Shown: in pieces, positions 2,548 to 26,575 of the stretch
How the letters are laid out: each line of letters begins with the position of its first letter
How positions within the stretch are numbered: position 1 is the stretch's first letter
Assembly: GCF_005145005.1 (NCBI RefSeq)
Contig: NZ_CP039712.1
Coordinates: 1,842,501-1,906,500, forward strand
From: Vagococcus zengguangii
GTDB lineage: Bacteria; Bacillota; Bacilli; Lactobacillales; Vagococcaceae
Length of the DNA: 64,000 nucleotides
Direction of reading: 5' to 3'
The notes under the pieces: generated by a model
What the model was told of the DNA's origin: nothing
What the model saw: the letters and a program-made list of their open reading frames with translations, nothing else
Database searches by the model: none
Position numbers and translations under genes: made by a program

Positions 2548-5295
2548 TTAGTAAACCGCTCGGTAATCCACCCAGCCAACGTTCTCGATGTAATAAGTCT
2601 TAATTCCTTCACTTGTTTTACCATAACGAGTAGTGCGAACTGTGTCATTAACTTTATACTTGCTAGAAATTGATTTTATTACGGTAGCATCAGCATTGTT
2701 AAATGGTGCACTATAAATATTGTAGCCAATGTTTTTAATCTTCATATTTTTAGCTTTAAATGAGCTATCATCCGTAAATGTCGCCACCTCTTTAACCGCT
2801 CGATAATCTATCCAACCGACATTCTCAATATAATATGTTTTTATACCCTCACTAGTTGTACCATAATGCGTCGCACGTACTTGTGCATTCACTGCGTATT
2901 TGCTACTAATTGGTGACACTACTGTTGAATTTTCGTTATTATATGGCGCACTGTAAATATTGTAGCCATTATTTTTGATTCTCATCGTTTTGGCACTGAA
3001 CGACGCATCATCTGTAAATGTTGCCACCTCTTTAACCGCTCGATAATCTACCCAACCGACATTCTCAATATAATATGTTTTGATACCTTCGCTAGTTGTA
3101 CCATAACGCGTCACACGCACTTGTGCATTCACTGCGTATTTGCTACTAATTGGTGACACTACTGCTGAATTTTCGTTATTATATGGCGCACTGTAAATAT
3201 TGTAGCCATTATTTTTGATTCTCATCGTTTTGGCACTGAACGACACATCATCATTAAATGTCGCTAAACTACCTAACGCACGATGATCTACCCAGCCAAC
3301 ATTTTCAATATAATATGTTTTAACACCGGAACTAGTGATACCATAACGTGTTATTTGAACTTTATTACCATTTTTGAATTTTTCTTTCAATTGTGTCACG
3401 CGATTTGCATTATAATTTCCGTATGGATTCGAATAAATATAGTAGCCATCATCCACAACGCGCATCCCAATTGCTTTGAAGCTTGTGTCTTCATCAAACG
3501 TTTTATAATTTTCAAACGCACGATAATCAACCCATCCCAAATTATTAATATGATAGGTTTTAACACCTGTACTAGTCACTACTTCCGAAGTAATTTCAGC
3601 ATTAGCATTAATTGCTAATTTATCTTTCAATAGGCTCACACGTTTCATTCCTAACGTATTGTAAGGTTTACTGTAAATGTAATAGCCATTATTCACAACT
3701 TTCATATTATTAGCAGGAGAAAAATCGGTTTGCGTTTTGATTGTTGCCAATTCAGATAACGCGCGACGGTCAACATAATAACCGTTTTCTAATTTATACA
3801 GTTTAATATTTTGAGAAGTTAACGTTTCAGCTACTACTTTAACTTGTTGTAAGTTTTGATAAACTTCTGACATTTGTTTTTGTCTACTAGCCCCTAAGGT
3901 ATTATATGGCAAGTCATATAAATAATAGCCTGTATTCGTAACACTCATGATTTTATCTACCGCTTTTTCTTCTACAACTGTTGCTTTAGCTTTTAAGGCA
4001 CGTTGATCAACATATAGACCATTAGCCAATCCATAAATCTTTACACCCTCGCTTGTAACGATGGCTTCTTTGACTTGGATTGGATCTTCATTCTTAGCGA
4101 TAGCTTGTAATGATTTTAGCGGTGTTGCACCTGGTGTATTATAAGGATTCGTATACAAACGATAAGAATTATCAGCCACTAGTAATTCATGATTAAAGGC
4201 TGTTTTACTTTTAATCGTGGCAGTTCGGTTATCACTTGCTTTAATCGCATTGTATTTGCTAACGATTAGGGCATAGAATTGATTCATGTTGTAACCCCAT
4301 TTAGCAAAATAGGTCACCGGATCAACGTGAGTCGTTCCTCCTAAATATTTTGAAACGGCATTATGACTAATAACCGAGCCTTTCCCTCCATTATTATCAG
4401 CAAGTGATGGTGTTAACCCCCACTGATACAATTGTGACGCAATCCAGTAAGCATCGTTACTAACTGATTTAGCAAAATTATGGAAACTACTTTCACGAAC
4501 TAATTCAATGTGAATATAAAACGGATTCGCTTGTCCACCAGCTCCCCAAGCTTTGTACTCGGTTGGTGCGGTTTCAATAACTTTGCCATTATCAACATAG
4601 GCGTGCACAAAAGCGTTATTGTAATTGTCATACATAAAATTGACTTCAGTCGAAATTGACGAATAATCATTGGCTGTTTCATGAACAACTACCCCCGTTG
4701 GACGATTATATTTATAATCATTCTTTGGTAACATATCAAAACGACTATCTTTAGAAATACTTGGATTAGGGAATTTTTGTTGCGCAATATAGTTATTAAC
4801 ATCTTGATATTTTTCCAAGACATTCATTGTGCGGGCAATTACCGCGGCAGCTTCTTGCTTTTCAAGTTCCGTGTGCGCTTCAGCTCCGGTCCCATCTGCC
4901 CCAACTGAGGTTGCGATGTCTTCAGGTGTTAACGAATCAAGCATCGCCTGAACATCAGGATGACGTTGATATTGATCTGCTAATTCCGCGGTGTAAATTC
5001 CTGTAACTAAATCTGGTGTAGTCGAAACTTCTTGAGAAGTACGGGCTGTTGGCATTTCTGGTGAGGCACTAGCAGTTGTTGCTGATGTTGATATTTCTTC
5101 TGAAGTTTGAGTAACTTGGTTAGCCTCTCCTGAACTTACTTCTGTAATAGCTGTTGCTAAACTTCCTGATGTATCACTTGCTGTTTCTGTTTGAGCAGTT
5201 GCTGATGAAGCAGTTGTTTCAGCAATCGCTAACGTTGGTAAAATACTACTACTAAATAACATCGTGACAAGCATAAGACTTAGTGGTTTTTTCAT
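2548..5295 (-). CDS. secreted N-acetylmuramoyl-L-alanine amidase with seven GW repeats
   Basis: Peptidoglycan hydrolase of 915 aa. Residues 1-25 form a signal peptide (MKK, hydrophobic core, AIAE), followed by a Ser/Thr/Glu/Ala-rich linker to about residue 95. An Amidase_2-type domain covers about 190-350; VVVHETAN (H205) and the THVDP box (H322, D324) supply likely zinc and catalytic residues. The rest is seven tandem GW modules of about 75 aa, most ending in the pattern YYIENVGWVDYRA; the first two are degenerate (GLYVDQRA, GYYVDRRA). GW modules are known to hold autolysins at the surface by binding teichoic acids, which fits the adjacent WTA genes. There is no LPXTG motif. GAAGGAG 10 bp upstream supports the start. 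Confidence 0.92.
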   Translation of the reverse strand: MKKPLSLMLVTMLFSSSILPTLAIAETTASSATAQTETASDTSGSLATAITEVSSGEANQVTQTSEEISTSATTASASPEMPTARTSQEVSTTPDLVTGIYTAELADQYQRHPDVQAMLDSLTPEDIATSVGADGTGAEAHTELEKQEAAAVIARTMNVLEKYQDVNNYIAQQKFPNPSISKDSRFDMLPKNDYKYNRPTGVVVHETANDYSSISTEVNFMYDNYNNAFVHAYVDNGKVIETAPTEYKAWGAGGQANPFYIHIELVRESSFHNFAKSVSNDAYWIASQLYQWGLTPSLADNNGGKGSVISHNAVSKYLGGTTHVDPVTYFAKWGYNMNQFYALIVSKYNAIKASDNRTATIKSKTAFNHELLVADNSYRLYTNPYNTPGATPLKSLQAIAKNEDPIQVKEAIVTSEGVKIYGLANGLYVDQRALKAKATVVEEKAVDKIMSVTNTGYYLYDLPYNTLGASRQKQMSEVYQNLQQVKVVAETLTSQNIKLYKLENGYYVDRRALSELATIKTQTDFSPANNMKVVNNGYYIYSKPYNTLGMKRVSLLKDKLAINANAEITSEVVTSTGVKTYHINNLGWVDYRAFENYKTFDEDTSFKAIGMRVVDDGYYIYSNPYGNYNANRVTQLKEKFKNGNKVQITRYGITSSGVKTYYIENVGWVDHRALGSLATFNDDVSFSAKTMRIKNNGYNIYSAPYNNENSAVVSPISSKYAVNAQVRVTRYGTTSEGIKTYYIENVGWVDYRAVKEVATFTDDASFSAKTMRIKNNGYNIYSAPYNNENSTVVSPISSKYAVNAQVRATHYGTTSEGIKTYYIENVGWIDYRAVKEVATFTDDSSFKAKNMKIKNIGYNIYSAPFNNADATVIKSISSKYKVNDTVRTTRYGKTSEGIKTYYIENVGWVDYRAVY

Positions 5296-5386: not shown

Positions 5387-8300
5387 CTATTTTAGAATAT
5401 CATAAATCTCTTTAGCCATGACAGAAATTGTCTCGTAGCTAGTATTACCACTTGTCATAACGGATAAAACAAATGGTGTATTAGCATAGACTATTGCTAC
5501 ATCATGACGATAATCGTAAACATCACCGATCTTATGACCAACTTTTACTGGTAAATATTTTGGAATTCGTTGATTGTCGTAGACCGTATTTTGTAAATAT
5601 TGAGTTGCTTGTCCACCTTGCTTATAGATAGCTTCCATCAATTTAGCGTTTTCTTTAGCAGTAATTGAGAAAGGGCTATCCCATGTACGACCAATGATAT
5701 TTGAAATCTCTTTTTTCATCGTTGCGTCATATTTACCACATGCATAATATGCTAAGAAGTTTGTCCCTTGGTTGTCGGAGTATTTAATCGTCCAATTCAA
5801 GATTTCATCGATGCTGTAGTATTTATTCTTAGGTTTCGACTGTAAAATACCTGCACCTCCACGCATATAAGCATTGGTCATATTATTAATAGCGTCAGTG
5901 TATAAATATTTCGCAGTGGGCTTAATTTTACCAGCATTGATCTGTTTTTGCGTGTAATAAATAGCTGGTAATTTACCGGTACTTGGCGCTGTATAGCGTT
6001 TATTTGCATTAATGCTAGCAGTTGAATGATCCCCCATACTTTCAACATAAATACCAAAACGACTTGAGTTGTATTTATTATTTAACAAGGTTTGGACTTT
6101 CTTCATTTTCTCAGCATGGATGCTTTCTGTTAATGCTCGATGATCGACCCAGCCGACATTTTTGATGTAGTAAACTTGAACGCCTTCACTAGTTGTTACT
6201 TGCTTCGTAACCGTCACTACACTACCATTACTATATTTTGATTTTAACGAACCAACTAATTTCATATCAGCTGTATTAAACGGTGCTGAGTAAATATTGT
6301 AGCCGTTGTTTTTGACAGCAAACGATTTATTCAATGTTTTTTCACTCTTAATCGTTGCAACTTCTTTTACAGCACGATAATCTACCCAGCCGACATTCTC
6401 GATGTAATATGTTTTGATCCCTTCGCTTGTTTTCCCGTAGCGTGTGACACGCACTAGATCGTTCACATTATACTTTTTGCTAAGTGCAGAAGTGACCACT
6501 GAATCAGTTGTATTGTACGGTGTTTTGTAAATGTTATAGCCATTGTTTTTGATACGCATATTTTTAGCTTTGAAATTAGCATCATCTGTGTACGTTGCCA
6601 TTTCTTTAATTGCACGATAGTCGACCCAACCAGCATTTTCGATATAGTAGGTTTTGATTCCTTCGCTTGTTTTTCCGTAGCGTGTAACACGTACTTGATC
6701 GTTCACTTTAAATTTTGTACTGATTGCTGCAGTTGCGACAGAGTTTTCGGTATTATAAGGCGTACGGTAAAACTTATAGCCATTATCTTTAATCCTTACA
6801 TTTTTCGAGACAAAATTGGTATCATCTGTGTACGTTGCAAACTCACTCAACGCACGATAATCGACCCAACCGACATTTTCAATATAGTAAGTCTTAACAC
6901 CAGTACTAGTCGTTCCATAACGAGTCACACGAACGGCATCACCTTTAGCATACTTTATTTTGACTTGTGTTCCTTGTTTAGAACCACTTGTGTTATATGG
7001 AGCGCTGTAGAAGTAATAGCCATTGTCTTTAACTTTCATGTTTTTAGCGACAAATGACGAATCTTCGGTAAATGTTGCGAATTCACCTAGTACACGATAA
7101 TCGACCCAGCCTATATTCTCGATATAGTAGGTTTTAACGCCCTCACTCGTTGTAGCATAACGAGTCACACGAACAGCATCACCTGCTTTATATTTATCTT
7201 TTACAAGCACATTTCTAAATGAATCCGCAGTATGATAAGGATTCGTATACACATAGTAGCTCGTGTTAATGACTTTCATGTCCCTAGCGACAAAACTTAG
7301 ATCTTCTAGATAAGTCGCCAAAGTCCCTAACGAGCGATGGTCAACCCAACCGACATTTTCAATATAGTAAGTTTTCACGCCTTTACTAGTTACGGCATAC
7401 TGAGTCACAGGTACTGCTTGACCGTTTTTATATAGAGCTGATAATTGTTTTAATTTAACACTGTCATAAGTCTTATACGGGGCGCGATAGACATAATAAC
7501 CTTCATCAGCGATTCGCATGTTAGTATTACGGGTTTCTAAGGTAGCTACTGCGGCTTCCACATTACCTAAAGCGCGGTAATCGACCCAACCTAAGTCTTG
7601 AATATAACATACTTTTACGCCAGTCGAGGTCGTTGCAGTCATCGTAACGATTATCCCACTATCAACCTCAAAATAATCAGCTAGCTTACCCGCTCGATAA
7701 GCACCTTTCGTGCCATATGGTGCAGTATATATATAGTAGCTATTACTTGCAATTCTTGAAGTCTTGTTTAGATTTTGACCCGTCAAGGTGTAAGTTGCTT
7801 CAGGTACATCATATTGGGTAAAACCATATGTTTCAATCACGTTATTTAACTTCGTACCATAGTTCGGATCAGTTGCATAACGGCCCGTCAAAGCCGCAGT
7901 AGCATCTTGATACGTTTTAGTATTTTCTTTCCAAACTCCTGCATAGTAATTGGCATCCCATGAGACACCTTTTCTGATTTTCTTTACATAATCTTGTAAA
8001 GACTCTTCATAAGAATTATATTTTTGGAATTTAGCGATAACAACATGCGCTACTTGATTGTCATCATATTCAATCGTTTCCATCTCAACATAATCACCAA
8101 CTCCACTATACTTAACCCCAAATAGGTTATAGTTTGGGGCACTTGCTAGCGTACTTGTTCCGTAAGCACTTTCTAGTGAAGCCTGTGCCATCATAACGGA
8201 GGCGTACAAATTATTAGCAATTGAAAGTTTTCTAACCGATGGTAATATTGCTTCAACAAATGACGTTACTCGCTCTGGAACTGTCGCTTTTTGTTGACTA

Positions 8301-8692
8301 CGGTAGTTACCAACCGTCTCCATAATCTTCAACGCTTCAGCTCTGACTGCTTCTTGAACCGAATCTGAAATTTCCAAGTCTTCTAATGGTTTAACTTCGC
8401 TTGATTCTTCAACTGATGAAACCGTTGATGTTTGCACAGTCGAACCTATCTGCTGTTCAGCACTATCTGACACTTCATCATCAGCCTCAACTTTTTCAAC
8501 TGGTTCAAAACTTGATGATGGTGTTACTTGATTATTTTCAACTGATGATTCTGTACCGCTAGTATTCTCTTTTATTGCAGCTTGGCTTTCTGAAGCAACC
8601 TCTGAAGTTGTTTCTGCTATCACTTCAGTGACTTGCAACATAGGTGATAAAACTAACGTACTAACCAACATGTTTGTTACGATTTTTTTCAC
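5387..8692 (-). CDS. secreted glucosaminidase, seven GW repeats, C-terminal class A beta-lactamase-like domain
   Basis: The reading frame is open further upstream, but the GTG at 8692 is the likely start: AGGAGG sits 6 bp before it, and a signal peptide (VKKIVTNML..., cut near VIAET) follows directly. The product is 1101 aa. A Ser/Glu-rich linker to about 130 precedes a GH73 glucosaminidase domain (about 140-295; ASLESAYGT, catalytic Glu about 174; RYATDPNYG). Seven GW modules follow (about 305-855; LGWVDYRA, VGWVDHRS and so on). Residues 859-1101 form a serine hydrolase domain with STGK (S904, K907), SDN (972-974) and HKIG in place of KTG. A class A deacylation Glu is not obvious, so a peptidase or esterase role is as likely as beta-lactam hydrolysis. 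Confidence 0.88.
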   Translation of the reverse strand: MKKIVTNMLVSTLVLSPMLQVTEVIAETTSEVASESQAAIKENTSGTESSVENNQVTPSSSFEPVEKVEADDEVSDSAEQQIGSTVQTSTVSSVEESSEVKPLEDLEISDSVQEAVRAEALKIMETVGNYRSQQKATVPERVTSFVEAILPSVRKLSIANNLYASVMMAQASLESAYGTSTLASAPNYNLFGVKYSGVGDYVEMETIEYDDNQVAHVVIAKFQKYNSYEESLQDYVKKIRKGVSWDANYYAGVWKENTKTYQDATAALTGRYATDPNYGTKLNNVIETYGFTQYDVPEATYTLTGQNLNKTSRIASNSYYIYTAPYGTKGAYRAGKLADYFEVDSGIIVTMTATTSTGVKVCYIQDLGWVDYRALGNVEAAVATLETRNTNMRIADEGYYVYRAPYKTYDSVKLKQLSALYKNGQAVPVTQYAVTSKGVKTYYIENVGWVDHRSLGTLATYLEDLSFVARDMKVINTSYYVYTNPYHTADSFRNVLVKDKYKAGDAVRVTRYATTSEGVKTYYIENIGWVDYRVLGEFATFTEDSSFVAKNMKVKDNGYYFYSAPYNTSGSKQGTQVKIKYAKGDAVRVTRYGTTSTGVKTYYIENVGWVDYRALSEFATYTDDTNFVSKNVRIKDNGYKFYRTPYNTENSVATAAISTKFKVNDQVRVTRYGKTSEGIKTYYIENAGWVDYRAIKEMATYTDDANFKAKNMRIKNNGYNIYKTPYNTTDSVVTSALSKKYNVNDLVRVTRYGKTSEGIKTYYIENVGWVDYRAVKEVATIKSEKTLNKSFAVKNNGYNIYSAPFNTADMKLVGSLKSKYSNGSVVTVTKQVTTSEGVQVYYIKNVGWVDHRALTESIHAEKMKKVQTLLNNKYNSSRFGIYVESMGDHSTASINANKRYTAPSTGKLPAIYYTQKQINAGKIKPTAKYLYTDAINNMTNAYMRGGAGILQSKPKNKYYSIDEILNWTIKYSDNQGTNFLAYYACGKYDATMKKEISNIIGRTWDSPFSITAKENAKLMEAIYKQGGQATQYLQNTVYDNQRIPKYLPVKVGHKIGDVYDYRHDVAIVYANTPFVLSVMTSGNTSYETISVMAKEIYDILK

Positions 8693-8813
8693 AAGATTCC
8701 TCCTAAAATGTTCATTATCTACCTCTACATTTTTAAATTTCCAACATTTTCTATTATACAGGATATTATCGTCAAAAAAATAATAACTTACGTTTATTAA
8801 AATCTTTTTATTT

Positions 8814-9944
8814 CTAATCAATCATAATTCTTAAGTGATACTTGTCTTTTAATTTTTCGATTTTATTATAAAAATAGTCAATGGCAATAGATGTTCCTAG
8901 TGATAACAATATTAAAACCAATAAATTAATAATCGGATTTCTAGAAATAAAAACCAACTTAACAAAAATTGAAAAACGGTAGCAAAAGAAACTATGGACG
9001 AGCCACATATTCGTGCTATGTTGACCTAAAAAAATAAAAACGGTAGTTAGTATTTTACTAGTATTAATGACGCTAACTAGTAAAGCGACTAAAACTGGTG
9101 TCAAAACAAAATAATAAAATTCAAAGCCACTAAAATTAAGTAAATAAATAGCCGATAATACTCCCCCAATACTTAATAACCATTTCCCCCAATTTTTAAT
9201 CTGCGCTAACTTACTCATTAATTGATCTAATACGTTATATTTAGCAAAAGTGATACCGCTAAATAACGTCATAATCCCTGTTTGATTAAAAAACTTTTCA
9301 TAATAGATTTCTCCCTTTAAGGATTCAAAAACAGGTAGCTGAACTAGTTCAGGTAGAAAATTAATGACGAATAAATTCAAAAGAAAGACTAAACCCATTT
9401 CAATTGTCAAATCATTAATGTTTTTCGTTAACACGATGTAAATGTAACCAACTAAACAAGCAATCACAAACGCCATCACAAACCACCATTCACCATTATA
9501 TGCAGTGACGTTAATTCCCCAAAAATTAAGAATAAACGTTTGTAAATCAAAGTGACGATATAAATCTGAATAACGTGTTAACGCTTCTTGATTACCAAAG
9601 AAAATAAAGGCAATCGGAATAAATAGTATAAATATTTTCCAATATGAAAAATAAATACTTGTAATTCTTTTTGCGAGATTTAAGCGTCCTGAAATATACT
9701 GTTTATAGAGACCATATCCCACAAAAAACATAAATATTGAGACACAAATTTTCCCAAATCGACCGAATGCGATTAATATCGGTACACCATTAATTGACAT
9801 AGTGGTGAGTGGTCCAGTCATTGCTAAGTTGCCATTTGGTAGTCTGTCAGGAAATGTCCACAAGTGATGAATTAACATTAAAACAATCGCCATTCCTTTA
9901 GCTACCTTCGTATCCTTTCTAGTAAAAAGGATTTTTCTTTCCAA
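8814..9944 (-). CDS. membrane acyltransferase family 3 protein
   Basis: An integral membrane protein of 376 aa with about ten hydrophobic segments and the family signature GMAIVLMLIHHLW near the N-terminus (the HH region is the conserved acyl-transfer motif). Family members move acetyl or other acyl groups onto extracytoplasmic glycans. No SGNH domain is attached, unlike OatA. Its place between WTA genes and autolysins suggests O-acylation of teichoic acid or peptidoglycan, which is inference. The frame is open to 10088. AAGGAG lies 9 bp before a TTG codon at 9944, but directly abuts an ATG at 9953, so TTG is preferred. Confidence 0.75.
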   Translation of the reverse strand: MERKILFTRKDTKVAKGMAIVLMLIHHLWTFPDRLPNGNLAMTGPLTTMSINGVPILIAFGRFGKICVSIFMFFVGYGLYKQYISGRLNLAKRITSIYFSYWKIFILFIPIAFIFFGNQEALTRYSDLYRHFDLQTFILNFWGINVTAYNGEWWFVMAFVIACLVGYIYIVLTKNINDLTIEMGLVFLLNLFVINFLPELVQLPVFESLKGEIYYEKFFNQTGIMTLFSGITFAKYNVLDQLMSKLAQIKNWGKWLLSIGGVLSAIYLLNFSGFEFYYFVLTPVLVALLVSVINTSKILTTVFIFLGQHSTNMWLVHSFFCYRFSIFVKLVFISRNPIINLLVLILLSLGTSIAIDYFYNKIEKLKDKYHLRIMID

Positions 9945-10163: not shown

Positions 10164-13100
10164 TTAAATTAAATGATGATAAAAATCATTTATGGCATCT
10201 TCATTATAACTTAAATAATCGAATCGCTTAAACTTACGATCACTTAGATAAATATATTCTAAACCTAATTCAATATCAGTTGGTTCAAAGCCGTTAATGT
10301 ACAACCCGTATGTTTCATCACCCACGACATTGCGATTCGCAGGGATATCCGAAACTAATAGTGGCAGACCCAACGTCAGAGATTCTAGCAACACCATCGG
10401 TTGTCCTTCATAAAATGAAGGTAGTACGAAAACATCGTTTTCTGATACAAATCGAAACGGATTATCTAAATGTCCCAAGACAAAAATATGCTCTGTCATC
10501 TTTGTCTCTTTAACCGCAGCAATTAATTCCTCTTCCAAAGGACCTTTACCTAAGATATAAAGTCTTGTCTTAGGATGTTTCTGATTAAACAAAGCAAATC
10601 CTTTAATTAAGGCAACCTGATTCTTTTCAGGCGATAAACGTCCCATATTAATAAAATTACAATAGTCTGGATCCAATGGTTCTACACGACTACCCGCTAG
10701 GTCGTATTTAGGTAATTGATACGCCTGCTTTTCCAATGCAACTTGTTGAGCAGCTTTTTCTTTTAAAGCTTGAAGAGATTGTTCTGCAGTCAATATATCT
10801 AAATGCTTTTCTTCAATATAAGCCATTGATGAATCCCTGAGTGTTACACCAATAAAGTTACCTTTTGATGTTTTTACTCGTTCAACTGTCTCTAAAACTT
10901 CTCCCAAATATTGATTAACAAGTGTTGACTCAAGCAGCTGACTGTTCGTCACACCATCTGGTAATTGCCAAATTGGTAATTCAGTTACACTCTCTTTATT
11001 TTTCACGTAGTATTGGAATGGTTCAACATGTTGACTCGCACTAATTTCCAGTTGTTTAGCCAAACGATTCGCTCGCGTGCGATAATACAACCATAATGGG
11101 CTAAATCTAGATAATTTATGAATACGTGTTAATGAACTATAAGCCAACCAACCTAATTCTTGCCCTAAATGACTAACCAGTACATAGTCACCTTTTGACG
11201 TTTTGGCTAGTTTTGAGAACATCAAATAGGTTCCTTTAAAATCCCTAGCATATGCTACTTTCGTATTTTCACTAGGTCCCTCTTGATTTCCTTTCCAAAT
11301 AGGATTATCTAGTTTTCTTGCTACGGTTCCTAAACCGACATAGTCACTAATGTTTTCTACAACTAGGGTTAATGACTCAGATAAATAATCACTCGCAATC
11401 CATCCTAAAGGCAAATCATTTAGCAGTACTTTATCATAAGATTGATTGTTTTCTTGTAACGTGGCGATACTAGTGATTTTATCAGTTGAATTAACAATGA
11501 TAGTTTGTCCCTGATGATTCTTTAGTTTTTCTAAATTATCAAAGAAAACTACTTCACCACTATTTTTCAACTCTTTTGGTTGCTCTTTGACTATTAGTTT
11601 TTCAACTTGCTTGCTATCTTCTACGATTTCTTGAGCATGCTCACCTAGAATAGCTTGAATATTAATCGTATTTACCGCATAAGTCATCTGTTCTGGTTTA
11701 ACAAACTCTGACAATTTCTCTTGATTAACTGCCATAGTCATTGGACTTACACTAATGATTTTGTCAAATTTATAGTAATTCTCAAAAAGACTTCTTAATC
11801 CACGATACATCGGCATTTCGCCATTCACTTCACGATGCGCATCAGCATATAAATCATTATGAGCAAAAACTAAATAACGATTAGCTTGTGCACCTAAAAT
11901 GTTTTTTGCCCAAAAAAGACTATAGCCACTGAAATCAATAGCCGCATCAAACGTTAAATTCCCCAATAAGCGGTTAACATCACGACGGTAAGCACGCTCT
12001 GGATAAATGACTGGTTCATCTGAATCAAAGTCACGATGGATTAAACGACGATTATCTTCGGCTTCTTCGACACTCCAAATCGAAGCCCCTGTTCGATATA
12101 GACAACGAACATTTGAATTAAGGCGATCAAAATTATAGCGAACCTCTTTCAATTTTGGTTCATCCGCCAAAACAGTCACATCATATTGCTCATAGTTAAT
12201 ATTATCCATCAAATTTAAGAAACTTGTTGTGATACCGTTTTTACGCATCCCGCCTGGATAAATCAAGAGTTTTTTCTTGTCTGTTTTTAGTGATAACTGT
12301 TTAACATCAGAACGTTCTTTGCCATTAAACATAATATCGAGATAATCTTCGGTCACTTGACCGTTATCATAGGCTACCATTCTTTCTTTCATTGAGCGAT
12401 AGTTAGCTTGGTATGGCGCAATGGCTTGCTCCACGTCACTCAATAAATCAATTAAATTGGTCATACTTTCAGCCGTAGGACCTGGTAAAGTATCAAGTTC
12501 CAAGTACATGCCACGTTCCGCTAAATATACTTCTTTATCCCAAACGTAGAAAATAATTGGCTTATCTGTCACTAGAAAATCAAAGAAAATACTTGAATAA
12601 TCTGTGACTAACACATCTACTAAGCTTAATAACTCATTCGCATCTAAGTAATCAGAGATTAAGTGTCCTGCTAAACGTTCATCATCTTTTAAATGTTTGT
12701 ACGCAAACGGATGGGCCTTGATTAAAATATTATACTCATTTGAGAATTTCACGGTTAATTGTTCTACTTCTTGAACCGTTTGTTCGATTGTATTTTGAGC
12801 ATTCCCCACTGCCTTACCACGCCAAGTTGGCGTATATAATAAAGTCTTCTTCGTTTCATCTAATACAATACCAAACGTCGATAACTTAGCTTGTAGTTCA
12901 GATTTAGGAGCGTTTAACGTTAAGTCGATTCGTGGATAACCATGTTCAATGATAGTCCCTTCATAGACATCATTTAACTTATACGCACGTTTAAAAATAT
13001 CCGTTGTATGGGCATTGGGTGATAACAGATAATCTGTCATCAAGAAATTACGCATGACATTTTGCGCTCCGTAAATAGCACCTGGCATATCAAAGCCCAT

Positions 13101-13526
13101 TAATTTTAGCGGCGTTCCATGCCATGTGTTGATATACACTTGATTTGGTCGTTTCACAAAAAACGTTTGGAACGTCGAGTTGGTGATAACATATTTTGAC
13201 GTTAACATCGCATCCACATACTCAAGCGTGTCACGTTCAACTACCGTTATACGTTGACGATAAGCTTCTGGGACATTTAATAATGCTTCTTCGTGATCTT
13301 TTTTCAACACCCAAATATGCTTCAAGTGTTGATAGTTCTCATCTGCCACTAATTTCAAGAAAATAGCGTATGGCGAATCAGTGATAGATGCTCCGTCACG
13401 GGTTTCATATAGTACCGCATTCTCATCAATTACAGCTGTTTCATAATATGTCCCATAATGTTCACGTATTAAGTGGTACATGCTCTTTTGTTTTTTCTTT
13501 TTCTTGCTGCTAAATAGTTGTATCAT
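10164..13526 (-). CDS. giant WTA enzyme: TagF domain, split GT-B glycosyltransferase with three internal GW-like modules
   Basis: 1120 aa with no signal peptide and a basic N-terminus (KKKKKQK) suited to membrane association. Residues about 15-400 form a glycerophosphotransferase domain (WHGTPLK at 135-141, KAHPF about 270, TDYSSIFFDF 308-317). Residues about 418-640 resemble the acceptor-side Rossmann half of a GT-B enzyme (GGMRKNGITTSF, FAHNDLYADAHRE). The donor half is at about 955-1115 (GRLSPEKNQ, FYEGQPMVLLE). Between the halves, about 640-915, lie three modules resembling GW/SH3b repeats, with LGWIASDYL (about 707) and LGWLAYSSL (about 791) and, in the third, PIWQLPDG. It probably extends and glycosylates poly(glycerol phosphate). 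Its N-terminal half is nearly duplicated in the gene at 14720. The start has AAGGAAG upstream. Confidence 0.85.
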   Translation of the reverse strand: MIQLFSSKKKKKQKSMYHLIREHYGTYYETAVIDENAVLYETRDGASITDSPYAIFLKLVADENYQHLKHIWVLKKDHEEALLNVPEAYRQRITVVERDTLEYVDAMLTSKYVITNSTFQTFFVKRPNQVYINTWHGTPLKLMGFDMPGAIYGAQNVMRNFLMTDYLLSPNAHTTDIFKRAYKLNDVYEGTIIEHGYPRIDLTLNAPKSELQAKLSTFGIVLDETKKTLLYTPTWRGKAVGNAQNTIEQTVQEVEQLTVKFSNEYNILIKAHPFAYKHLKDDERLAGHLISDYLDANELLSLVDVLVTDYSSIFFDFLVTDKPIIFYVWDKEVYLAERGMYLELDTLPGPTAESMTNLIDLLSDVEQAIAPYQANYRSMKERMVAYDNGQVTEDYLDIMFNGKERSDVKQLSLKTDKKKLLIYPGGMRKNGITTSFLNLMDNINYEQYDVTVLADEPKLKEVRYNFDRLNSNVRCLYRTGASIWSVEEAEDNRRLIHRDFDSDEPVIYPERAYRRDVNRLLGNLTFDAAIDFSGYSLFWAKNILGAQANRYLVFAHNDLYADAHREVNGEMPMYRGLRSLFENYYKFDKIISVSPMTMAVNQEKLSEFVKPEQMTYAVNTINIQAILGEHAQEIVEDSKQVEKLIVKEQPKELKNSGEVVFFDNLEKLKNHQGQTIIVNSTDKITSIATLQENNQSYDKVLLNDLPLGWIASDYLSESLTLVVENISDYVGLGTVARKLDNPIWKGNQEGPSENTKVAYARDFKGTYLMFSKLAKTSKGDYVLVSHLGQELGWLAYSSLTRIHKLSRFSPLWLYYRTRANRLAKQLEISASQHVEPFQYYVKNKESVTELPIWQLPDGVTNSQLLESTLVNQYLGEVLETVERVKTSKGNFIGVTLRDSSMAYIEEKHLDILTAEQSLQALKEKAAQQVALEKQAYQLPKYDLAGSRVEPLDPDYCNFINMGRLSPEKNQVALIKGFALFNQKHPKTRLYILGKGPLEEELIAAVKETKMTEHIFVLGHLDNPFRFVSENDVFVLPSFYEGQPMVLLESLTLGLPLLVSDIPANRNVVGDETYGLYINGFEPTDIELGLEYIYLSDRKFKRFDYLSYNEDAINDFYHHLI
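12150..13526 (-). repeat. long direct repeat, copy A (5' part of TagF-GW-GT gene)
   Basis: The first roughly 1.38 kb of this gene aligns without gaps to 16718-18094, with long identical DNA stretches (for example around 12185-12280 against 16753-16848). The 3' parts have diverged strongly. Limits are approximate. Confidence 0.8.
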
Positions 13527-13593
13527 GTTCTAACTTCCTTAATTCTATTTTTTAACATCACAATAGTCACACCAAAAATGGTATTAAAACTCT

Positions 13594-13625
13594 AAAAAAG
13601 TGAAGATTTTACTCTTCACTTTTTT
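13594..13625 (-). terminator. terminator after the epimerase gene
   Basis: A 13-bp stem (AAAAAAGTGAAGA / TCTTCACTTTTTT) with a 6-nt loop, A-tract on one side and T-tract on the other. It follows the epimerase stop by about 45 bp and could work in both directions. Confidence 0.85.
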
Positions 13626-13670
13626 ATTAAGTATGTCATTTTTTAAGTTGATCAGCAAACCAGTACCTAA

Positions 13671-14627
13671 TCAATGATTATTTTTCATTTCATGTGCTAC
13701 TAATTTTTCTAACCCTTGTTTAATATTAAATTTAGGTTCATACCCTAGTTGCTTCAATTTATCAATTGAAGCGTAAGAATCTTTAATGTCGCCTTTTCTA
13801 GCTTCTTGATAAATAACATCTAACTTTACATTTAAAATTTCATTTAATGTACTAATCACGGTATTCAAATTAGTATTAATTGCTGTTCCAACATTATAAA
13901 CTTCACCAATTGTTTCTTCAGACTCCGCGACTAATAGTAAAGCATCTAAGACATCTTCAACAAATACGAAATCTCTAGTTTGTTCCCCATCACCGAATAA
14001 CGTAAACATTACTTTTTCTCCATTTTTGGTTTTAATCACTCTGTCTAATAAAATAGAGATAACGCCTGAATAAGGTGAGCTAGGATTTTGATTAGGTCCA
14101 TATACATTAAAGAATCTAGTAGCCGATGTCTTAATACCAAATAATTTTTCAGCATTTAATAATGTACGTTCTGCTGCATATTTATCCACAGCATATGGTG
14201 TTAGTGGATTAATGATTGAATTTTCAGTTTTCGGTAAGACGGGATCATCACCATAAACTGCCGCTGATGAAGCAAATACAATTCTGTTAATAGTTGGTTG
14301 ATATACTCTAACTAATTCTAATAAATTTAGTGCACTACTATAATTCACTTCATGTGTTTCAACCGGACGTTCAACTGAATCAGCAACACTTGCTACTGCT
14401 GCCAAGTGAAAAATATAGTCAAATTTATTAGAAGAAATCAATCCTTTCATTAACGATTGATCCGTCACTGAACCTTCAATGAATGTCAAATTAGCTGATG
14501 CTACTAAATTTTCTTTTTTACCCATTGATAAGTCATCAATTACTGTGACTTCATGTCCCTTTTTCAGCAATTTATTGCTTAGGTTAGAGCCTATAAATCC
14601 TGCCCCTCCCGTGACTAAATAATGCAT
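13671..14627 (-). CDS. NAD-dependent sugar-nucleotide epimerase (extended SDR, GalE-like)
   Basis: 318 aa. The N-terminal GGAGFIGSN binds NAD, and YAVDKYAAE carries the Tyr-x-x-x-Lys catalytic pair; FASSAAVYGD and RFFNVYGPNQNPSSPYSGV are typical of UDP-glucose or UDP-GlcNAc 4-epimerases. It probably supplies UDP-Gal or UDP-GalNAc for decorating teichoic acid, since it lies between two TagF-glycosyltransferase genes. Substrate (UDP-Glc or UDP-GlcNAc) cannot be decided from sequence alone. GAGGCGG before the ATG supports the start. Confidence 0.88.
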   Translation of the reverse strand: MHYLVTGGAGFIGSNLSNKLLKKGHEVTVIDDLSMGKKENLVASANLTFIEGSVTDQSLMKGLISSNKFDYIFHLAAVASVADSVERPVETHEVNYSSALNLLELVRVYQPTINRIVFASSAAVYGDDPVLPKTENSIINPLTPYAVDKYAAERTLLNAEKLFGIKTSATRFFNVYGPNQNPSSPYSGVISILLDRVIKTKNGEKVMFTLFGDGEQTRDFVFVEDVLDALLLVAESEETIGEVYNVGTAINTNLNTVISTLNEILNVKLDVIYQEARKGDIKDSYASIDKLKQLGYEPKFNIKQGLEKLVAHEMKNNH

Positions 14628-14719
14628 TTTACCGCCTCAATTCTTTATTTTTTATAACTAAATTCCCTACACTTGTTTTTATATTTATCTAACTTTGAAC
14701 GTAAAAAATTGCTAGATAA

Positions 14720-17700
14720 TTAAGATAATAATTCATAAAAACTTGCAATTGCTTCTTGATTGTACTGTTCATAGTCAAATGTTTTAAATACTTTTTGATT
14801 TAAATAAATACGTTCTAATCCATTCTCAATATCTTCGGGTTCAAATCCGTTAATATATAAACCATACTCTTCCTCACCAACTATATTACGGTTGGCAGGA
14901 ATATCCGTTGTTATCAGTGGCACGCCTAACGTCATCGCTTCAAGCAACACCATTGGCTGGCCTTCATAAAACGATGTCAGAGTGAAGACATCATTTAGTT
15001 TTACAAACTCAAATGGTTTATCCAAGTGGCCTAGTAAAAAGACTTTTGACTCCATATTTAATTCTTTTACTAAATCAATTAGCTCTGAAGCTAATTGTCC
15101 TTGACCTAACAAATATAAACGTGATTTTGGATATTTTTCATTAAATAGGGCAAAACCTTTAATTAGCGATGCTTGGTTTTTTTCTGGAGATAAACGTCCC
15201 ATAGTCACGATATTATAATAATCTGAATCTATACCGTCAACCTCACTTCCAACTAAATCAACTTCTGGAAGACCAATAGTTTCATTCAGCTCTTCTTTTT
15301 CATTTAAAGATGTTTGCTGCTTGGCTTCTATTAGTTGTAGAGCTTTCTCTTCAGGCATGATGGTTAGGTAAGTTTCTTCAACATAACCTATTTTTTCTCC
15401 ATCAAGTTTTAACCCTACAAAACTGCCTTTATTCGTTGTAATGCGCTCATATGCTTCTAATACTTCACCCTCGTATTGAGCTACTGATTCTGTTATCAAC
15501 TTACTGTTTGTTACACCATTTGGTAAATTCCATAAGGTTAAGTTGGCATCAGACGTGTTCAACATAACATATATCTGTAAATCCTCGATTTTTTTACTAA
15601 AACCAATTCCTAAACGTTTGTCTAGCTCCTTACTTTTCTTATTGAAATAAGCCCATAACGGTGACCATCTAGAAAGTTCATGAATACGAGTTAACGGCCT
15701 AATCGAAGTCCAACCTATTTCTTGTCCTAAATAACTTGCTAAATAATAACGACCATTTGAAGTTTTAGCTACTTTGGAAAGTGTCAAGTAGGTCCCTTTA
15801 AAATCTCTTAAATAAGCAACTTTTTCATCTTGTCCTTTGTTTTGGCGAACGTTTTTCCAAAGTGAATAATTTAAATTGCGAGTAACTGTTCCGATAGCTC
15901 GGTAATCTTCAATGGATTCAATAAATATCGGTGTTTCATTAATCAACTCTTCGCTGGCTAACCAACCTAGAGCTAAACCGTCGACAATTACCTTATCATA
16001 CGTTATATCTTGATGCGTGAAGGTTGCTATACTAGTAACATTAGCATCAAGATCAAAATATCTTATTTCACCTTGTTGTTGTTTTAAGCATTCAAAATTT
16101 TTATAGAAAACCAATTCGCCGCCATTTTTTAGTGACTTTTGCTTATTTTTCACAATTATTTTTGCCGAATCTTCGCTCTCATAAACATCTGCTGTTTCTT
16201 CAGGTGTTTGACCTAAAATTGCTTGAATATTAATAGTATTCACTGCATAGGTCATTTGATCATTTCTGATATACTCGTTCAATTTCTCACGGTTAACTTC
16301 CATCGACATCGGGCTAACATTAATCATTTTATCAAATTTATAATAATAATCGAAAAGATTACGTAAACCACGATACATTGGCATCTTACCGTTCACTTCA
16401 CGGTGAGCATCTGCATAAATATCACTATGTAAGAAAATTAAATAACGATCAGCTTGAGCACCTAAAATATTTTTTGCCCAAAAAAGACTGTAACCACTGA
16501 AGTCTATGGCTGTATCAAACGTTAAGTTCCCCAACAAACGATTAACATCACGACGGTAAGCACGCTCTGGATAAACGACTTTTTCATCAGAATCAAATTC
16601 CCTATGAATTAAACGACGATTGTCTTCGGCTTCTTCCACACTCCAGATCGAAGACCCAGTTCGATAAAGACAACGTACGTGCTTGTTTAAACGACCATAG
16701 TTAAAACGAACTTCAGCCCCTTTTGGCTCATCTGCCAAGACGGTCACATCATATTGCTCATAGTTAATATTATCCATCAAATTTAAGAAACTTGTTGTGA
16801 TACCGTTTTTACGCATCCCGCCTGGATAAATCAAGAGTTTTTTCTTGTCTGTTTTTAATGATAACTGTTTAACATCCAAGCGCTCTTTGTCGTTGAACAT
16901 GATATCAAGATAGTCTTCAGTCACTTGTCCATTATCATAATTGACCATTTTTTCTTTCATCAAGCGGTAGTTAGCTTGGTATGGCGCAACTGACTGTTCA
17001 ACATCTACCAGTAATTCAAGAAGGTCTGTAAGACTTTCAGCCGTAGGTCCTGGTAGAGTTTCAAGTTCCAAGTACATGCCACGTTCCGCTGAATATACTT
17101 CTTTATCCCAGACATAGAAAATGATTGGCTTATCTGTCACTAGAAAATCAAAGAAAATACTTGAATAGTCTGTGACTAATACGTCAACTATGCTTAGTAA
17201 CTCATTCGCATCTAAGTAATCTGAAATCAAACGCCCCGCTAAACGTTCGTCATCTTTCAAATGTTTGTACGCAAACGGATGAGCCTTGATTAAAATATTA
17301 TACTCATTTGAGAATTTCACGGTTAATTGTTCTACTTCTTGAACCGTTTGTTCAATGGTATTTTGGGCATTTCCCACCGCCTTACCACGCCAAGTTGGCG
17401 TATATAGTAAGGTCTTTTTCGTTTCATCTAGTACAATACCAAACGTTGATAGCTTAGCTTGTAGTTCAGATTTAGGAGCGTTTAACGTTAAGTCGATTCG
17501 TGGATAACCGTGCTCAATGATCGTCCCTTCATAGACATCATTTAACTTGTACGCACGTTTAAAAATATCCGTTGTATGGGCATTAGGAGATAACAGATAA
17601 TCTGTCATCAAGAAATTACGCATGACATTTTGCGCATTATAAATAGCCCCCGGTATATCAAAGCCCATTAATTTAAGCGGTGTTCCATGCCACGTATTGA

Positions 17701-18094
17701 TATAAATTTGGTCCGGTCGTTTTACGAAAAAAGTTTGGAACGTCGAGTTGGTGATAACATATTTTGACGTTAACATCGCATCTACATACTCAAGCGTATC
17801 ACGTTGAACTACCGTTATACGTTGACGATATTCTTCCGGAACATTTAATAACGCTTCTTCGTGATCTTTTTTCAACACCCAAATATGCTTTAAATGATGA
17901 TAGTTATCGTCTGACACTAATTTCAAGAAAATAGCGTATGGAGAATCGGTGATAGATGCTCCGTCACGGGTTTCATATAACACCGCATTTTCGTCAATCA
18001 CAGCGGTGTCATAATGCGCCCCATAATGTTCACGCATTAAGTGGTACATGCTTTTTTGTTTTTTCTTTTTCCTACGGCTAAATAAATTTATCAT
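14720..18094 (-). CDS. second giant WTA enzyme: TagF domain, GT-B glycosyltransferase with internal GW-like modules
   Basis: 1124 aa and a paralogue of the 10164 gene with the same order: basic N-terminus, TagF domain (WHGTPLK about 135-141, TDYSSIFFDF about 308), GT-B acceptor half to about 640, three GW-like modules (LGWLASEEL about 709, IGWTSIRPL about 793, a third ending IGYVEETYL with GY for GW), and the GT-B donor half (GRLSPEKNQ, FYEGQPMVLLEAM). The N-terminal 450 residues are almost identical to the paralogue; the module and donor regions differ, pointing to a different sugar, acceptor or chain-length preference. The start at MINLF (ATG 18094, AAGGAA upstream) matches the paralogue; an upstream TTG at 18112 is less likely. 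Confidence 0.85.
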   Translation of the reverse strand: MINLFSRRKKKKQKSMYHLMREHYGAHYDTAVIDENAVLYETRDGASITDSPYAIFLKLVSDDNYHHLKHIWVLKKDHEEALLNVPEEYRQRITVVQRDTLEYVDAMLTSKYVITNSTFQTFFVKRPDQIYINTWHGTPLKLMGFDIPGAIYNAQNVMRNFLMTDYLLSPNAHTTDIFKRAYKLNDVYEGTIIEHGYPRIDLTLNAPKSELQAKLSTFGIVLDETKKTLLYTPTWRGKAVGNAQNTIEQTVQEVEQLTVKFSNEYNILIKAHPFAYKHLKDDERLAGRLISDYLDANELLSIVDVLVTDYSSIFFDFLVTDKPIIFYVWDKEVYSAERGMYLELETLPGPTAESLTDLLELLVDVEQSVAPYQANYRLMKEKMVNYDNGQVTEDYLDIMFNDKERLDVKQLSLKTDKKKLLIYPGGMRKNGITTSFLNLMDNINYEQYDVTVLADEPKGAEVRFNYGRLNKHVRCLYRTGSSIWSVEEAEDNRRLIHREFDSDEKVVYPERAYRRDVNRLLGNLTFDTAIDFSGYSLFWAKNILGAQADRYLIFLHSDIYADAHREVNGKMPMYRGLRNLFDYYYKFDKMINVSPMSMEVNREKLNEYIRNDQMTYAVNTINIQAILGQTPEETADVYESEDSAKIIVKNKQKSLKNGGELVFYKNFECLKQQQGEIRYFDLDANVTSIATFTHQDITYDKVIVDGLALGWLASEELINETPIFIESIEDYRAIGTVTRNLNYSLWKNVRQNKGQDEKVAYLRDFKGTYLTLSKVAKTSNGRYYLASYLGQEIGWTSIRPLTRIHELSRWSPLWAYFNKKSKELDKRLGIGFSKKIEDLQIYVMLNTSDANLTLWNLPNGVTNSKLITESVAQYEGEVLEAYERITTNKGSFVGLKLDGEKIGYVEETYLTIMPEEKALQLIEAKQQTSLNEKEELNETIGLPEVDLVGSEVDGIDSDYYNIVTMGRLSPEKNQASLIKGFALFNEKYPKSRLYLLGQGQLASELIDLVKELNMESKVFLLGHLDKPFEFVKLNDVFTLTSFYEGQPMVLLEAMTLGVPLITTDIPANRNIVGEEEYGLYINGFEPEDIENGLERIYLNQKVFKTFDYEQYNQEAIASFYELLS
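16718..18094 (-). repeat. long direct repeat, copy B (5' part of TagF-GW-GT gene)
   Basis: Partner of 12150-13526, in the same orientation and about 4.57 kb apart. Recombination between the copies would delete the epimerase gene and make a chimeric enzyme. Limits are approximate. Confidence 0.8.
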
Positions 18095-18144: not shown

Positions 18145-18546
18145 TTAATCTTCCTTCAACCCTAATCTTCTTTTAATATCGGTCGTCGAAACATTTTCTG
18201 TTCTTGGTAAATAAATCACTTCACATTGATTTTTCAAGAAGTCAAACTTACCTTCCCATGTATCACCCATCACAAATACATCGATATCATATTTTTCGAT
18301 ATCTGTCGCTTTTTGTTCCCAGTTTTCTTCTGGGTGAACCTCATCCACATATTTCAATGCTTCTAATACTAATTTACGATCTTCATACGTGTAGTAATTA
18401 TCTTTACCTTTAACATCTTGGTTGAATTCATCAGTCGATAACATCACGACTAATTCATCCCCTAAAGCTTTGGCTCTTTTTAATAAGTTGATATGACCTT
18501 TATGTAAAATATCATATGTTCCATATGTAATAACGCGTTTTGTCAT
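18145..18546 (-). CDS. tagD: glycerol-3-phosphate cytidylyltransferase, copy 1
   Basis: 133 aa, the usual TagD length. It makes CDP-glycerol from CTP and sn-glycerol 3-phosphate, the donor for the TagB/TagF enzymes nearby. The nucleotidyltransferase motif HKGH lies near residue 15 and the RTENVSTT signature near the C-terminus; VMGDTWEGKFD is also conserved. GGGGGAA lies before the ATG. A second tagD lies 14 bp upstream in the same direction. Confidence 0.93.
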   Translation of the reverse strand: MTKRVITYGTYDILHKGHINLLKRAKALGDELVVMLSTDEFNQDVKGKDNYYTYEDRKLVLEALKYVDEVHPEENWEQKATDIEKYDIDVFVMGDTWEGKFDFLKNQCEVIYLPRTENVSTTDIKRRLGLKED

Positions 18547-18560
18547 GTTAGTTCCCCCTA

Positions 18561-18956
18561 TTATTCTGCTTTTTCTTTAAAGTCAGTTTTAATTTTAGTG
18601 GTTGAAATACCTTCTGTACGTGGTAAATAAATTACTTCGCAGTAATCTTTTAAAAAATCAAATTTACCTTCCCAGTCGTGTCCCATGACAAAAATATCGA
18701 TTTCATTGTCTACTACATCTGCAATTTTTTGTTCCCAATCATTTTCAGGTAAGACAGCATCCACATATTTAACTGCTTCTAAAATATACTTACGATCTTC
18801 AAACGGCATGAAAGAAGTTTTACCTTTAATAGCATTGAACTCATCTGAAGAAATCACAACTGTTAAATGATCTCCCATTTCTTTTGCGCGACGTAAGATG
18901 TTGATGTGGCCCTTGTGTAATAAATCAAACGTTCCGTATGTAATGACTTTTTTCAT
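18561..18956 (-). CDS. tagD: glycerol-3-phosphate cytidylyltransferase, copy 2
   Basis: 131 aa with HKGH near residue 15, MGHDWEGKFDFLKDY and RTEGISTTKI. It is clearly homologous to the neighbouring copy but not a recent duplicate, since the two differ at many positions. Both keep the catalytic motifs, so both should make CDP-glycerol, though one could have shifted to another alditol phosphate. Start supported by GAGGGAAG. Confidence 0.92.
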   Translation of the reverse strand: MKKVITYGTFDLLHKGHINILRRAKEMGDHLTVVISSDEFNAIKGKTSFMPFEDRKYILEAVKYVDAVLPENDWEQKIADVVDNEIDIFVMGHDWEGKFDFLKDYCEVIYLPRTEGISTTKIKTDFKEKAE

Positions 18957-22660: not shown

Positions 22661-23479
22661 TTAAATAAAATCAACAAATCTTGCGCGGAATTTCATATGT
22701 AAATGAGAACCTAACGCTAATAAAATTAAAACAATCGTCCAGAAAAAGGCAGTCTGTGTGCCAATTTCCCAAAACCATTGACGTGATAAGAACGAATCAC
22801 GGAAACCGTTAATAATATAATACAGTGGATTCAATTCTAATAGTCTAACTAAACTATCGCGTCCTTTAAATTGTCCCATAGTGTGTAGATTCCAAATTGG
22901 TCCTGATAGGTAAAATAGTAATCTTAAAATCGACTGTAACATGATGTGATAATCTCTCACCAACACCGTAATCGTCGCATTTAAAATACCAAATGCGAAT
23001 AGAAAGGCAATCATACAGATGAAATAATAGAAATACTGTAACCAATAAATCGTTATCGGAACTTTTGCGATAAACATCGCCACTACTAACAATAGCATCA
23101 TCCAACGATAGCTGACAAAATTACTTGCCATGTTAACAGATGGCAAGACACTCACTGGGAATTTCATTTTTGAAACCATGCCTACTTGTTTAAAGATGCT
23201 ATTGGACATTCCTAAGATAGAGCTATTTAAGAAGAACCAGGTAATAATCCCCATTAACATCCACACAATAAACGGCACACCGTCGACTTGACGACCGCCA
23301 TTAACCCCTAAACCAAACACCAAGTAATAAATTCCTACTTGAATGGCTGGGTTTAAAAACTGCCACATTAAACCTAAATAATGACTTTGATACGTTGCTT
23401 TTTCTTCATAAGTTGAAATTCTTTTAATTATTCCTAAATTCTGGAATTGTTCTTTTAACACTAAAATAATATCATTCAC
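22661..23479 (-). CDS. tagG: WTA ABC transporter permease
   Basis: 272 aa with six predicted membrane spans of the ABC-2 type; the YQSHYLGLMWQFLNPAIQ region is typical of TagG/Wzm polysaccharide exporters. With TagH it flips undecaprenyl-linked WTA to the outer face. It is last in the tagH-tagB-tagA-tagG unit and is closed by a strong terminator. GGAGC lies before the ATG. Confidence 0.92.
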   Translation of the reverse strand: MNDIILVLKEQFQNLGIIKRISTYEEKATYQSHYLGLMWQFLNPAIQVGIYYLVFGLGVNGGRQVDGVPFIVWMLMGIITWFFLNSSILGMSNSIFKQVGMVSKMKFPVSVLPSVNMASNFVSYRWMMLLLVVAMFIAKVPITIYWLQYFYYFICMIAFLFAFGILNATITVLVRDYHIMLQSILRLLFYLSGPIWNLHTMGQFKGRDSLVRLLELNPLYYIINGFRDSFLSRQWFWEIGTQTAFFWTIVLILLALGSHLHMKFRARFVDFI

Positions 23480-23495
23480 TCTCGTTGCTCCTTTG

Positions 23496-24230
23496 TTATT
23501 TGCCCTTATTCGCTCGGTACCATTTTTTGGCTTTCATCACAAAAAGTGGTAATTCAACAATGCGATATAGACGTTTTGGGTTACTCAATGAGCGGTATAA
23601 CCATTCTAAATTTAATTTAATAAAAATCTCAGGTGAACGTTTGACCGAACCACTAATCACATCAAATGCACCACCCACATCTTGGAAATACTTGGCTTCG
23701 ACTGCTTGATAGTGTTTAGCTAACCATCGTTCTTGTCTTGGGAAACCTAACGCCACAAAAACCATATCAGGTTGGGAAGCATTCATCTCCGCTACAATTT
23801 CATCTTCACTCAGCTTGGTATAGCCATCAATACTACCGGCAACCGTTAATCCTGGATAAGTTTTTTCAATATTGGTAACCGCTGCTTCTAAGACTTCAGG
23901 CTTCGCACCATATAAAAAGATGCGTTTATGATGTGTATGAGCAAATGTAAGCAGTTCATACATCAGTTCAATACCTGCGACACGCTCATTGATTTTCTTT
24001 TCTTGCTGTTGCGAGACTTTTACGATGCCAATCCCATCTGGAATGCGGTGAGTTGCTTGATTAATAAAGTCCACAATTTCCGGATATTCATCCGCATGTA
24101 ACCCAATTTGTGGGTTCACACTAATAAAAGTAAAAGGACCGGGTTGTTTATCCAATTCTGGTAAACTCTGGACAATGTCAGAAAGCGTAATGGCATCTAC
24201 TTCTAAACCATTAATATATTCGATTGTCAT
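23496..24230 (-). CDS. tagA: WecG/TagA family N-acetylmannosaminyltransferase
   Basis: 244 aa. It transfers ManNAc from UDP-ManNAc to undecaprenyl-PP-GlcNAc, the second step of linkage-unit synthesis. Family features are FISVNPQIGLHADEYPEI, RIPDGIGIVKVSQ, FLYGAKPEV and VALGFPRQERWLAKH. The frame is open to 24299, but the ATG at 24230 has AGGAG seven bases upstream and fits the family length. It starts ten bases after the preceding stop codon, so translation is probably coupled. Confidence 0.92.
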   Translation of the reverse strand: MTIEYINGLEVDAITLSDIVQSLPELDKQPGPFTFISVNPQIGLHADEYPEIVDFINQATHRIPDGIGIVKVSQQQEKKINERVAGIELMYELLTFAHTHHKRIFLYGAKPEVLEAAVTNIEKTYPGLTVAGSIDGYTKLSEDEIVAEMNASQPDMVFVALGFPRQERWLAKHYQAVEAKYFQDVGGAFDVISGSVKRSPEIFIKLNLEWLYRSLSNPKRLYRIVELPLFVMKAKKWYRANKGK

Positions 24231-24240
24231 AACGTTTCTC

Positions 24241-25401: not shown

Positions 25402-25416
25402 TGTCTTCACCCCAAA

Positions 25417-26475: not shown

Positions 26476-26527
26476 ATTTACCACCTTGGTTAATTATTCT
26501 TCCTGTTTCTTACGAATATCGTTTCCT

Positions 26528-26536: not shown

Positions 26537-26575
26537 AAAAACAGAACAATTATCTTCTTTTACGATAAAATGACA

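Follow-up and report, generated by a model that had tools for sequence, protein, structure and literature searches.

In a 64,000-nucleotide stretch of the Vagococcus zengguangii genome (contig NZ_CP039712.1, positions 1,842,501 to 1,906,500; hereafter the window), two intact open reading frames (ORFs) on the minus strand, A (10164-13526, 1120 amino acids) and B (14720-18094, 1124 amino acids counted from the ATG; the alternative TTG start at 18112 is also permitted by the ORF finder), encode TagF-GT4 fusions with an array of GW modules seated between the two halves of the GT-B fold. The array is predicted to fold into three barrels that are SH3-like and belong to the GW family. The two proteins are probably cytoplasmic bifunctional polymerases, candidates for the synthesis of a complex (type II-like) poly(glycosylglycerol phosphate) wall teichoic acid (WTA), in which the GW array would hold the growing chain for processive elongation.

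Identity and fold of the insert

Both proteins begin with a TagF-like domain, which is followed by a GT4 domain whose two Rossmann halves lie about 330 residues apart (Glyphos_transf E 3.2e-92 and GT4 E 4e-26 in A, E 4.7e-91 and E 1.3e-28 in B); the insert spans residues 628-953 in A and approximately 628-957 in B. A previous examination of the letters of the window (the sequence-only reading) had placed three GW-type modules between the GT-B halves, and profile searches and structure prediction bear this out. With a Pfam cut-off of 21 bits for the GW domain family (PF13457), A reaches 45.1 bits (E 1.7e-11, in three stretches) and B 56.2 bits (E 5.8e-15), while in the corresponding NCBIfam model (cut-off 50) B lies above the threshold with 55.2 and A below it with 30.6. 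A hidden Markov model made from exported GW modules only detects the inserts at 31.7 (A) and 42.0 (B) bits, compared with 9.0 bits for the best of 500 shuffled inserts and at most 0.9 for the remaining parts of A and B and the two insert-free paralogues. A profile built on 12 inserts in turn matches the GW proteins Lmo1076 (5jqc, 2.7e-14) and InlB (5.4e-7), its third module aligning on its own to an Lmo1076 module, and GW is matched by every one of the 22 aligned homologues.

All four motifs quoted in the sequence-only reading are present in A (LGWIASDYL at residue 707, NPIWKG at 741, LGWLAYSSL at 791 and LPIWQLP at 850), and B has variants, namely LGWLASEEL at 709, IGWTSIRPL at 793 and the degenerate IGYVEETYL at 902. 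The Gly-Trp dipeptide itself is found in modules 1 and 2 of both proteins, module 3 being degenerate (IGYVEETYL in B, MAYIEEKHL in A). The GW motifs lie 84 and about 109 residues apart; the second interval is the longer one because of a helix between modules 2 and 3. For module 1 the sequence by itself gives weak evidence, and its assignment is owed mainly to the fold model.

An AlphaFold2 model of B with 22 relatives (mean predicted local distance difference test, pLDDT, 80) has three units made up entirely of beta structure where the insert separates the GT-B halves, and the insert folded by itself reaches a mean pLDDT of 81.5, with values around 90 across much of the barrels. The only PDB entries matched by this predicted insert model at E ≤ 0.001 are GW proteins: 5jqc (Lmo1076; E 4.7e-12, VIA-align Z 12.9), 1m9s (InlB; E 3.2e-8, Z 12.0) and 4epc (the AtlE repeats of Staphylococcus epidermidis; E 5.0e-5, Z 8.7). 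VIA-align delimits the three barrels at insert residues 17-95, 99-195 and 208-288; the root-mean-square deviation of the whole array from solved GW proteins is large (9-21 Å) because the angles between modules differ. The model of the whole of B matches Cps3D over 757 aligned residues (E 3.3e-57, Z 41.2) as well as TagF and, lower in the list, Lmo1076 and InlB, most likely via the insert. Neither the lack of an SH3-like fold nor a TarM-type beta domain, the outcomes considered adverse to the GW assignment, was encountered: for the latter the profile search gave no match at E ≤ 10, and TarM is absent among the fold matches listed, which does not amount to its exclusion.

Catalytic residues, cellular location and divergence of A and B

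The TagF-domain residues H136, P139 (of the HGTP motif), H272 and D309 (the Asp of DYSS) are invariant across 22 homologues, as are R967/K972 and the EX7E glutamates E1044/E1052 of the GT4 domain. The longest hydrophobic stretch within the first 80 residues of A and B is only weakly so, with a mean hydropathy of 0.34-0.47 across 19 residues, and a signal peptide is therefore absent, in agreement with the sequence-only reading. CDP (cytidine diphosphate)-glycerol and nucleotide sugars, the substrates of such enzymes, are cytosolic. Judged by these features of their sequences, A and B are cytoplasmic and retain intact active-site residues. Proline in the HGTP motif marks a glycerol-phosphate transferase and glycine a ribitol-phosphate transferase (PMC10299916), and following this rule from the Bcs3 study, A and B would transfer glycerol rather than ribitol phosphate.

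The identity between A and B is distributed as a mosaic: it is 92% between the TagF domains, 43-54% between the GW modules and 67% between the GT4 donor halves, and at third codon positions it falls from 77% in the TagF domain to 42-50% in the GW insert and GT4 donor half. The front halves of the two genes appear to have been homogenised, while array and sugar-donor half remained distinct, which suggests gene conversion restricted to the front half. Such a divergence would fit two polymerases making related but different repeats, each with an array of its own.

Comparison with characterised proteins

The closest solved relative of A and B is Cps3D of Actinobacillus pleuropneumoniae serotype 3 (PDB 8QOY), with which they share a TagF-like domain fused to a retaining GT4-type GT-B domain in equal order and with the same catalytic motifs. 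Cps3D, however, carries an N-terminal TPR domain and has uninterrupted GT-B halves, whereas A and B lack the TPR and contain the three GW barrels; residue 11 of the B model already aligns with residue 358 of Cps3D, past the TPR domain that most Gram-negative members possess. Cps3D is a poly(galactosylglycerol phosphate) polymerase in which the transfer of glycerol phosphate and galactose alternates, and its TPR is required for processivity and for the use of poly(glycerol phosphate) acceptors and mediates dimerisation (PMC11666461). Since the TagF plus GT4 architecture is most like that of Cps3D, a poly(glycosylglycerol phosphate) is predicted, which should probably replace the plain poly(glycerol phosphate) of the sequence-only reading.

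Bcs3 of Haemophilus influenzae type b (PDB 8A0C/8A0M) resembles A and B as a multi-enzyme polyol-phosphate polymerase with a cytoplasmic SH3-like domain, but differs in having a single SH3b at the C-terminal side of its ribofuranosyltransferase and in producing a ribitol-phosphate polymer. Two repeat units of the nascent chain were bound to this SH3b in the crystal and truncations disrupting it abolish activity (PMC10299916). The GW repeats of Lmo1076 (5JQC), InlB (1M9S) and AtlE (4EPC) have the fold and the profile in common with the insert; they are, however, secreted, tandem and mostly basic and serve as extracellular anchors to (lipo)teichoic acids, whereas the insert of A and B belongs to a cytoplasmic enzyme. 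TarM, GtfA and SdgB are similar to A and B in layout, each being a GT4 GT-B enzyme supplemented by a beta oligomerisation domain, and TarM likewise modifies WTA, but this additional domain is of a different family from the GW insert.

Distribution, module number and age

Within the Vagococcaceae, 21 of the 29 genomes contain a strong relative, most ORFs measuring 1120-1196 amino acids. A scan of named genomes returned relatives in Enterococcus, Vagococcus, Tetragenococcus, Lacticaseibacillus, Weissella, Leuconostoc and Lactococcus, as well as in Sporolactobacillus, Heyndrickxia, Peribacillus, Neobacillus, Lederbergia and others; as it comprised the best 80 of 503 relatives by their match to an insert-bearing query, the share with the insert is biased upward. 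An even sample of 300 Bacilli yielded 13 genomes with a close relative, six of them with an insert-length ORF matching over the TagF-GT4 core. A polymerase of Heyndrickxia coagulans, which may be linked to the poly(galactosylglycerol phosphate) of that species, contains four GW modules (207 bits, E 4.8e-62). Insert lengths are stepwise and correspond to about 0, 2, 3, 4, 6 and 8 module equivalents, the profile resolving up to five modules and higher counts being derived from insert length. In two proteins of 1538-1539 amino acids (L111 879-5495 and L118 891-5504) the profile picks out one to five of the roughly eight modules that the insert length would accommodate. Polymerases occur in tandem, one with four GW modules and the other with two, at five Neobacillus/Bacillus loci (L087, L089, L094, L096, L097), and a GT2-TagF fusion in a genus-mate (L022 7280-10789) has several hundred interdomain residues without GW or Pfam match.

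In the tree of the catalytic core, which excludes the insert-free row L045, two changes account for the distribution, one gain of the insert and one loss (Weizmannia acidilactici). In the module tree the polymerase modules cluster by their position in the enzyme across genera, separately from the exported modules, which speaks for an old part of the enzyme and not for a recent loan from autolysins. Recent borrowing from the neighbouring autolysins was accordingly rejected as the simplest explanation, with four label changes compared to 33 in shuffles, at a resolution limited by the 77 columns of the alignment. The insert-bearing architecture is thus of old standing and is widespread in Bacilli, a single gain and a single loss being inferred from the tree as sampled.

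Of the 74 loci, 51 have one or more WTA genes within about 5 kilobases. In six Vagococcaceae genomes (G002, G013, G016, G017, G020, G027), within the sensitivity of the search, GW matches are confined to polymerase ORFs, so that the modules would serve an intracellular task, independent of exported GW partners. A general coupling between genes of GW polymerases and GW autolysins is unsupported, given these six genomes and non-polymerase GW ORFs flanking the polymerase at only 6 of the 74 loci. Near full-length relatives also occur on large Enterococcus plasmids and on one Peribacillus plasmid (NZ_CP116511.1, NZ_CP078095.1, NZ_CP123608.1, NZ_CP133767.1), where they are annotated merely as CDP-glycerol glycerophosphotransferase or glycosyltransferase; a plasmid-borne polymerase may move between strains.

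Proposed function and alternative explanations

In the mechanism considered likely here, CDP-glycerol would supply the glycerol phosphate attached by the TagF domain, the GT4 domain would attach a hexose, and the alternating action of the two domains at the chain end would give rise to poly(glycosylglycerol phosphate). Lying between the GT-B halves, the three GW barrels would hold the nascent lipid-linked chain close to both active sites and at the same time allow it to slide, so that elongation would proceed processively until the chain arrives at the exporter TagGH. The exact repeat unit, the alternation of transfer, the binding of the chain by GW modules and an effect on processivity or length are all elements we infer. 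Holding of the chain by the array is plausible by analogy, with a direct precedent in Bcs3.

Several observations weigh against chain holding. Modules 1 and 3 of A and B are acidic (net charge -2 to -5), module 2 alone being basic (+4/+6, isoelectric point (pI) 9.5-9.8), in contrast to the GW arrays of the autolysins, which have a pI of 9.3-9.4. Simple attraction by charge, the explanation proposed for exported GW arrays, therefore carries little weight in the case of modules 1 and 3, and module charge varies by genus, the Heyndrickxia insert being strongly basic. SH3-like barrels are able to bind proteins too. The Bcs3 structures 8a0c and 8a0m match the TagF domain only and do not figure in the sequence and fold results listed for the insert, which makes Bcs3 a precedent by analogy only. 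Moreover, the insert is absent in the staphylococcal relatives and in Weizmannia and must be dispensable for some such polymerases.

The barrels might instead be an oligomerisation or scaffold device comparable to the TarM beta domain or the Cps3D TPR, supporting a dimer or docking to TagGH, TagB or the membrane with no contact to the polymer. TarM- and GtfA-type GT4 enzymes do carry an oligomerising beta domain, the Cps3D dimer forms through the TPR as described above, and both the acidic modules 1 and 3 and the faster evolution of the insert relative to the catalytic domains would agree with such a role. We nevertheless regard it as unlikely: fold and profile of the insert are those of GW with no TarM beta domain among the matches listed, characterised GW modules are binders of cell-wall polymers, and a highly variable number of modules would be unusual for a fixed interface. 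The array might also be a molecular ruler, with module number setting either the chain length or the distance between the sites of glycerol-phosphate and sugar transfer, as the clustering of insert lengths and the tandem four- and two-module pairs of Neobacillus/Bacillus would suggest; module number may, however, track phylogeny instead of product length, and a ruler likewise seems improbable. Least credible, and in our opinion very unlikely, is that the modules are inert spacers from one domain-fusion event, retained since their removal would unfold the GT-B hinge. The low sequence conservation of the insert and its apparent loss in the W. acidilactici relative have been counted in favour of this explanation, but many genera retain the fold, the GW/T-G positions and the position-specific lineages, and as the apparent loss implies a hinge tolerating removal, retention elsewhere suggests use.

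Extending chain holding by the GW array beyond A and B, Gram-positive bacteria could make complex (type II-like) WTA with TagF-GT4 polymerases whose cytoplasmic arrays read the very polymer to which exported GW autolysins attach afterwards on the wall, and a module number of between 0 and about 8 would tune processivity or chain length in the way of TPR and SH3b in Gram-negative capsule polymerases; this generalisation is tentative and, on balance, rather doubtful. The GW array in the GT-B hinge of Gram-positive TagF-GT4 polymerases, with its modular number and one inferred origin, is a combination of parts that, like chain binding by an SH3b (Bcs3), are already known; in the openly licensed literature searched, no mention of this combination, of the insert or of GW modules in cytoplasmic polymerases was found. 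The same literature states as a gap that the polymerases of complex WTA have not been identified, and the widespread GW TagF-GT4 family is a strong candidate. With a teichoic-acid-binding type of module placed on the synthetic side of the membrane, the question of processivity becomes directly testable and the GW insert offers a testable handle on complex teichoic acid synthesis.

Locus context

The locus comprises a complete CDP-glycerol-fed WTA pathway together with two secreted GW hydrolases (Table 1). Its other two TagF-GT4 fusions, one at 20083-22551 and one at the left edge, lack the GW insert according to profile searches, as the sequence-only reading had stated.

Table 1. Positions of the GW-containing polymerases, their domains and the surrounding genes in the window
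Feature	Position	Strand	Remark
GW-containing TagF-GT4 polymerase B	14720..18094	-	Glyphos_transf, GT4, GW 56 bits; Cps3D Z 41.2
B, TagF-like glycerol-phosphate transferase domain, residues 1-405	16880..18094	-	HGTP and other active-site residues intact
B, N-terminal (acceptor-side) GT-B half, residues 411-627	16214..16864	-	
B, GW module 1, residues 644-722, LGWLASEEL	15929..16165	-	Sequence weak, model clear
B, GW module 2, residues 726-812, IGWTSIRPL	15659..15919	-	Strongest and basic module
B, GW module 3, residues 833-914, behind helix 813-828	15353..15598	-	
B, C-terminal (donor-side) GT4 half, EX7E motif	14723..15223	-	
GW-containing TagF-GT4 polymerase A	10164..13526	-	Glyphos_transf, GT4, GW 45 bits
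A, TagF-like domain	12312..13526	-	92% identity to B
A, GW module 1, residues 642-720, LGWIASDYL	11367..11603	-	
A, GW module 2, residues 724-810, LGWLAYSSL	11097..11357	-	
A, GW module 3, residues 831-913, MAYIEEKHL	10788..11036	-	Degenerate
A, C-terminal GT4 half	10167..10667	-	
NAD (nicotinamide adenine dinucleotide)-dependent sugar epimerase/dehydratase between A and B	13671..14627	-	Best model GalE, 191 bits, below cut-off of 262
Two TagD glycerol-3-phosphate cytidylyltransferases (CDP-glycerol supply)	18145..18956	-	Both above equivalog cut-off
TagF-GT4 fusion without GW insert, 822 amino acids	20083..22551	-	
WTA core: TagG permease, TagA, TagB primase, TagH ATPase, LCP ligase (all minus strand) and TagO (next row)	22661..29153	-/+	
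TagO	27996-29153	+	
Secreted glucosaminidase, 7 GW modules, beta-lactamase-like C-terminus	5387..8821	-	
Secreted amidase, 6-7 GW modules	2548..5295	-	

The TagH of the locus scores above its equivalog cut-off and the primase is TagB-like. C-terminal domains of TagH proteins (5bnd, 9a4o) are among the SH3-like matches of the insert, at Z 6.2-7.6 and hence below the level of kinship; the TagH encoded at 25417-26484 has 355 amino acids, compared with 527 in the TagH chain of 9a4o, and a second SH3-like part in WTA export is possible. The C-terminal domain of the glucosaminidase is class A beta-lactamase-like (PF13354), and the same domain is found at the C-terminus of a GW protein in another Vagococcaceae genome (G025; L141 448-3843).

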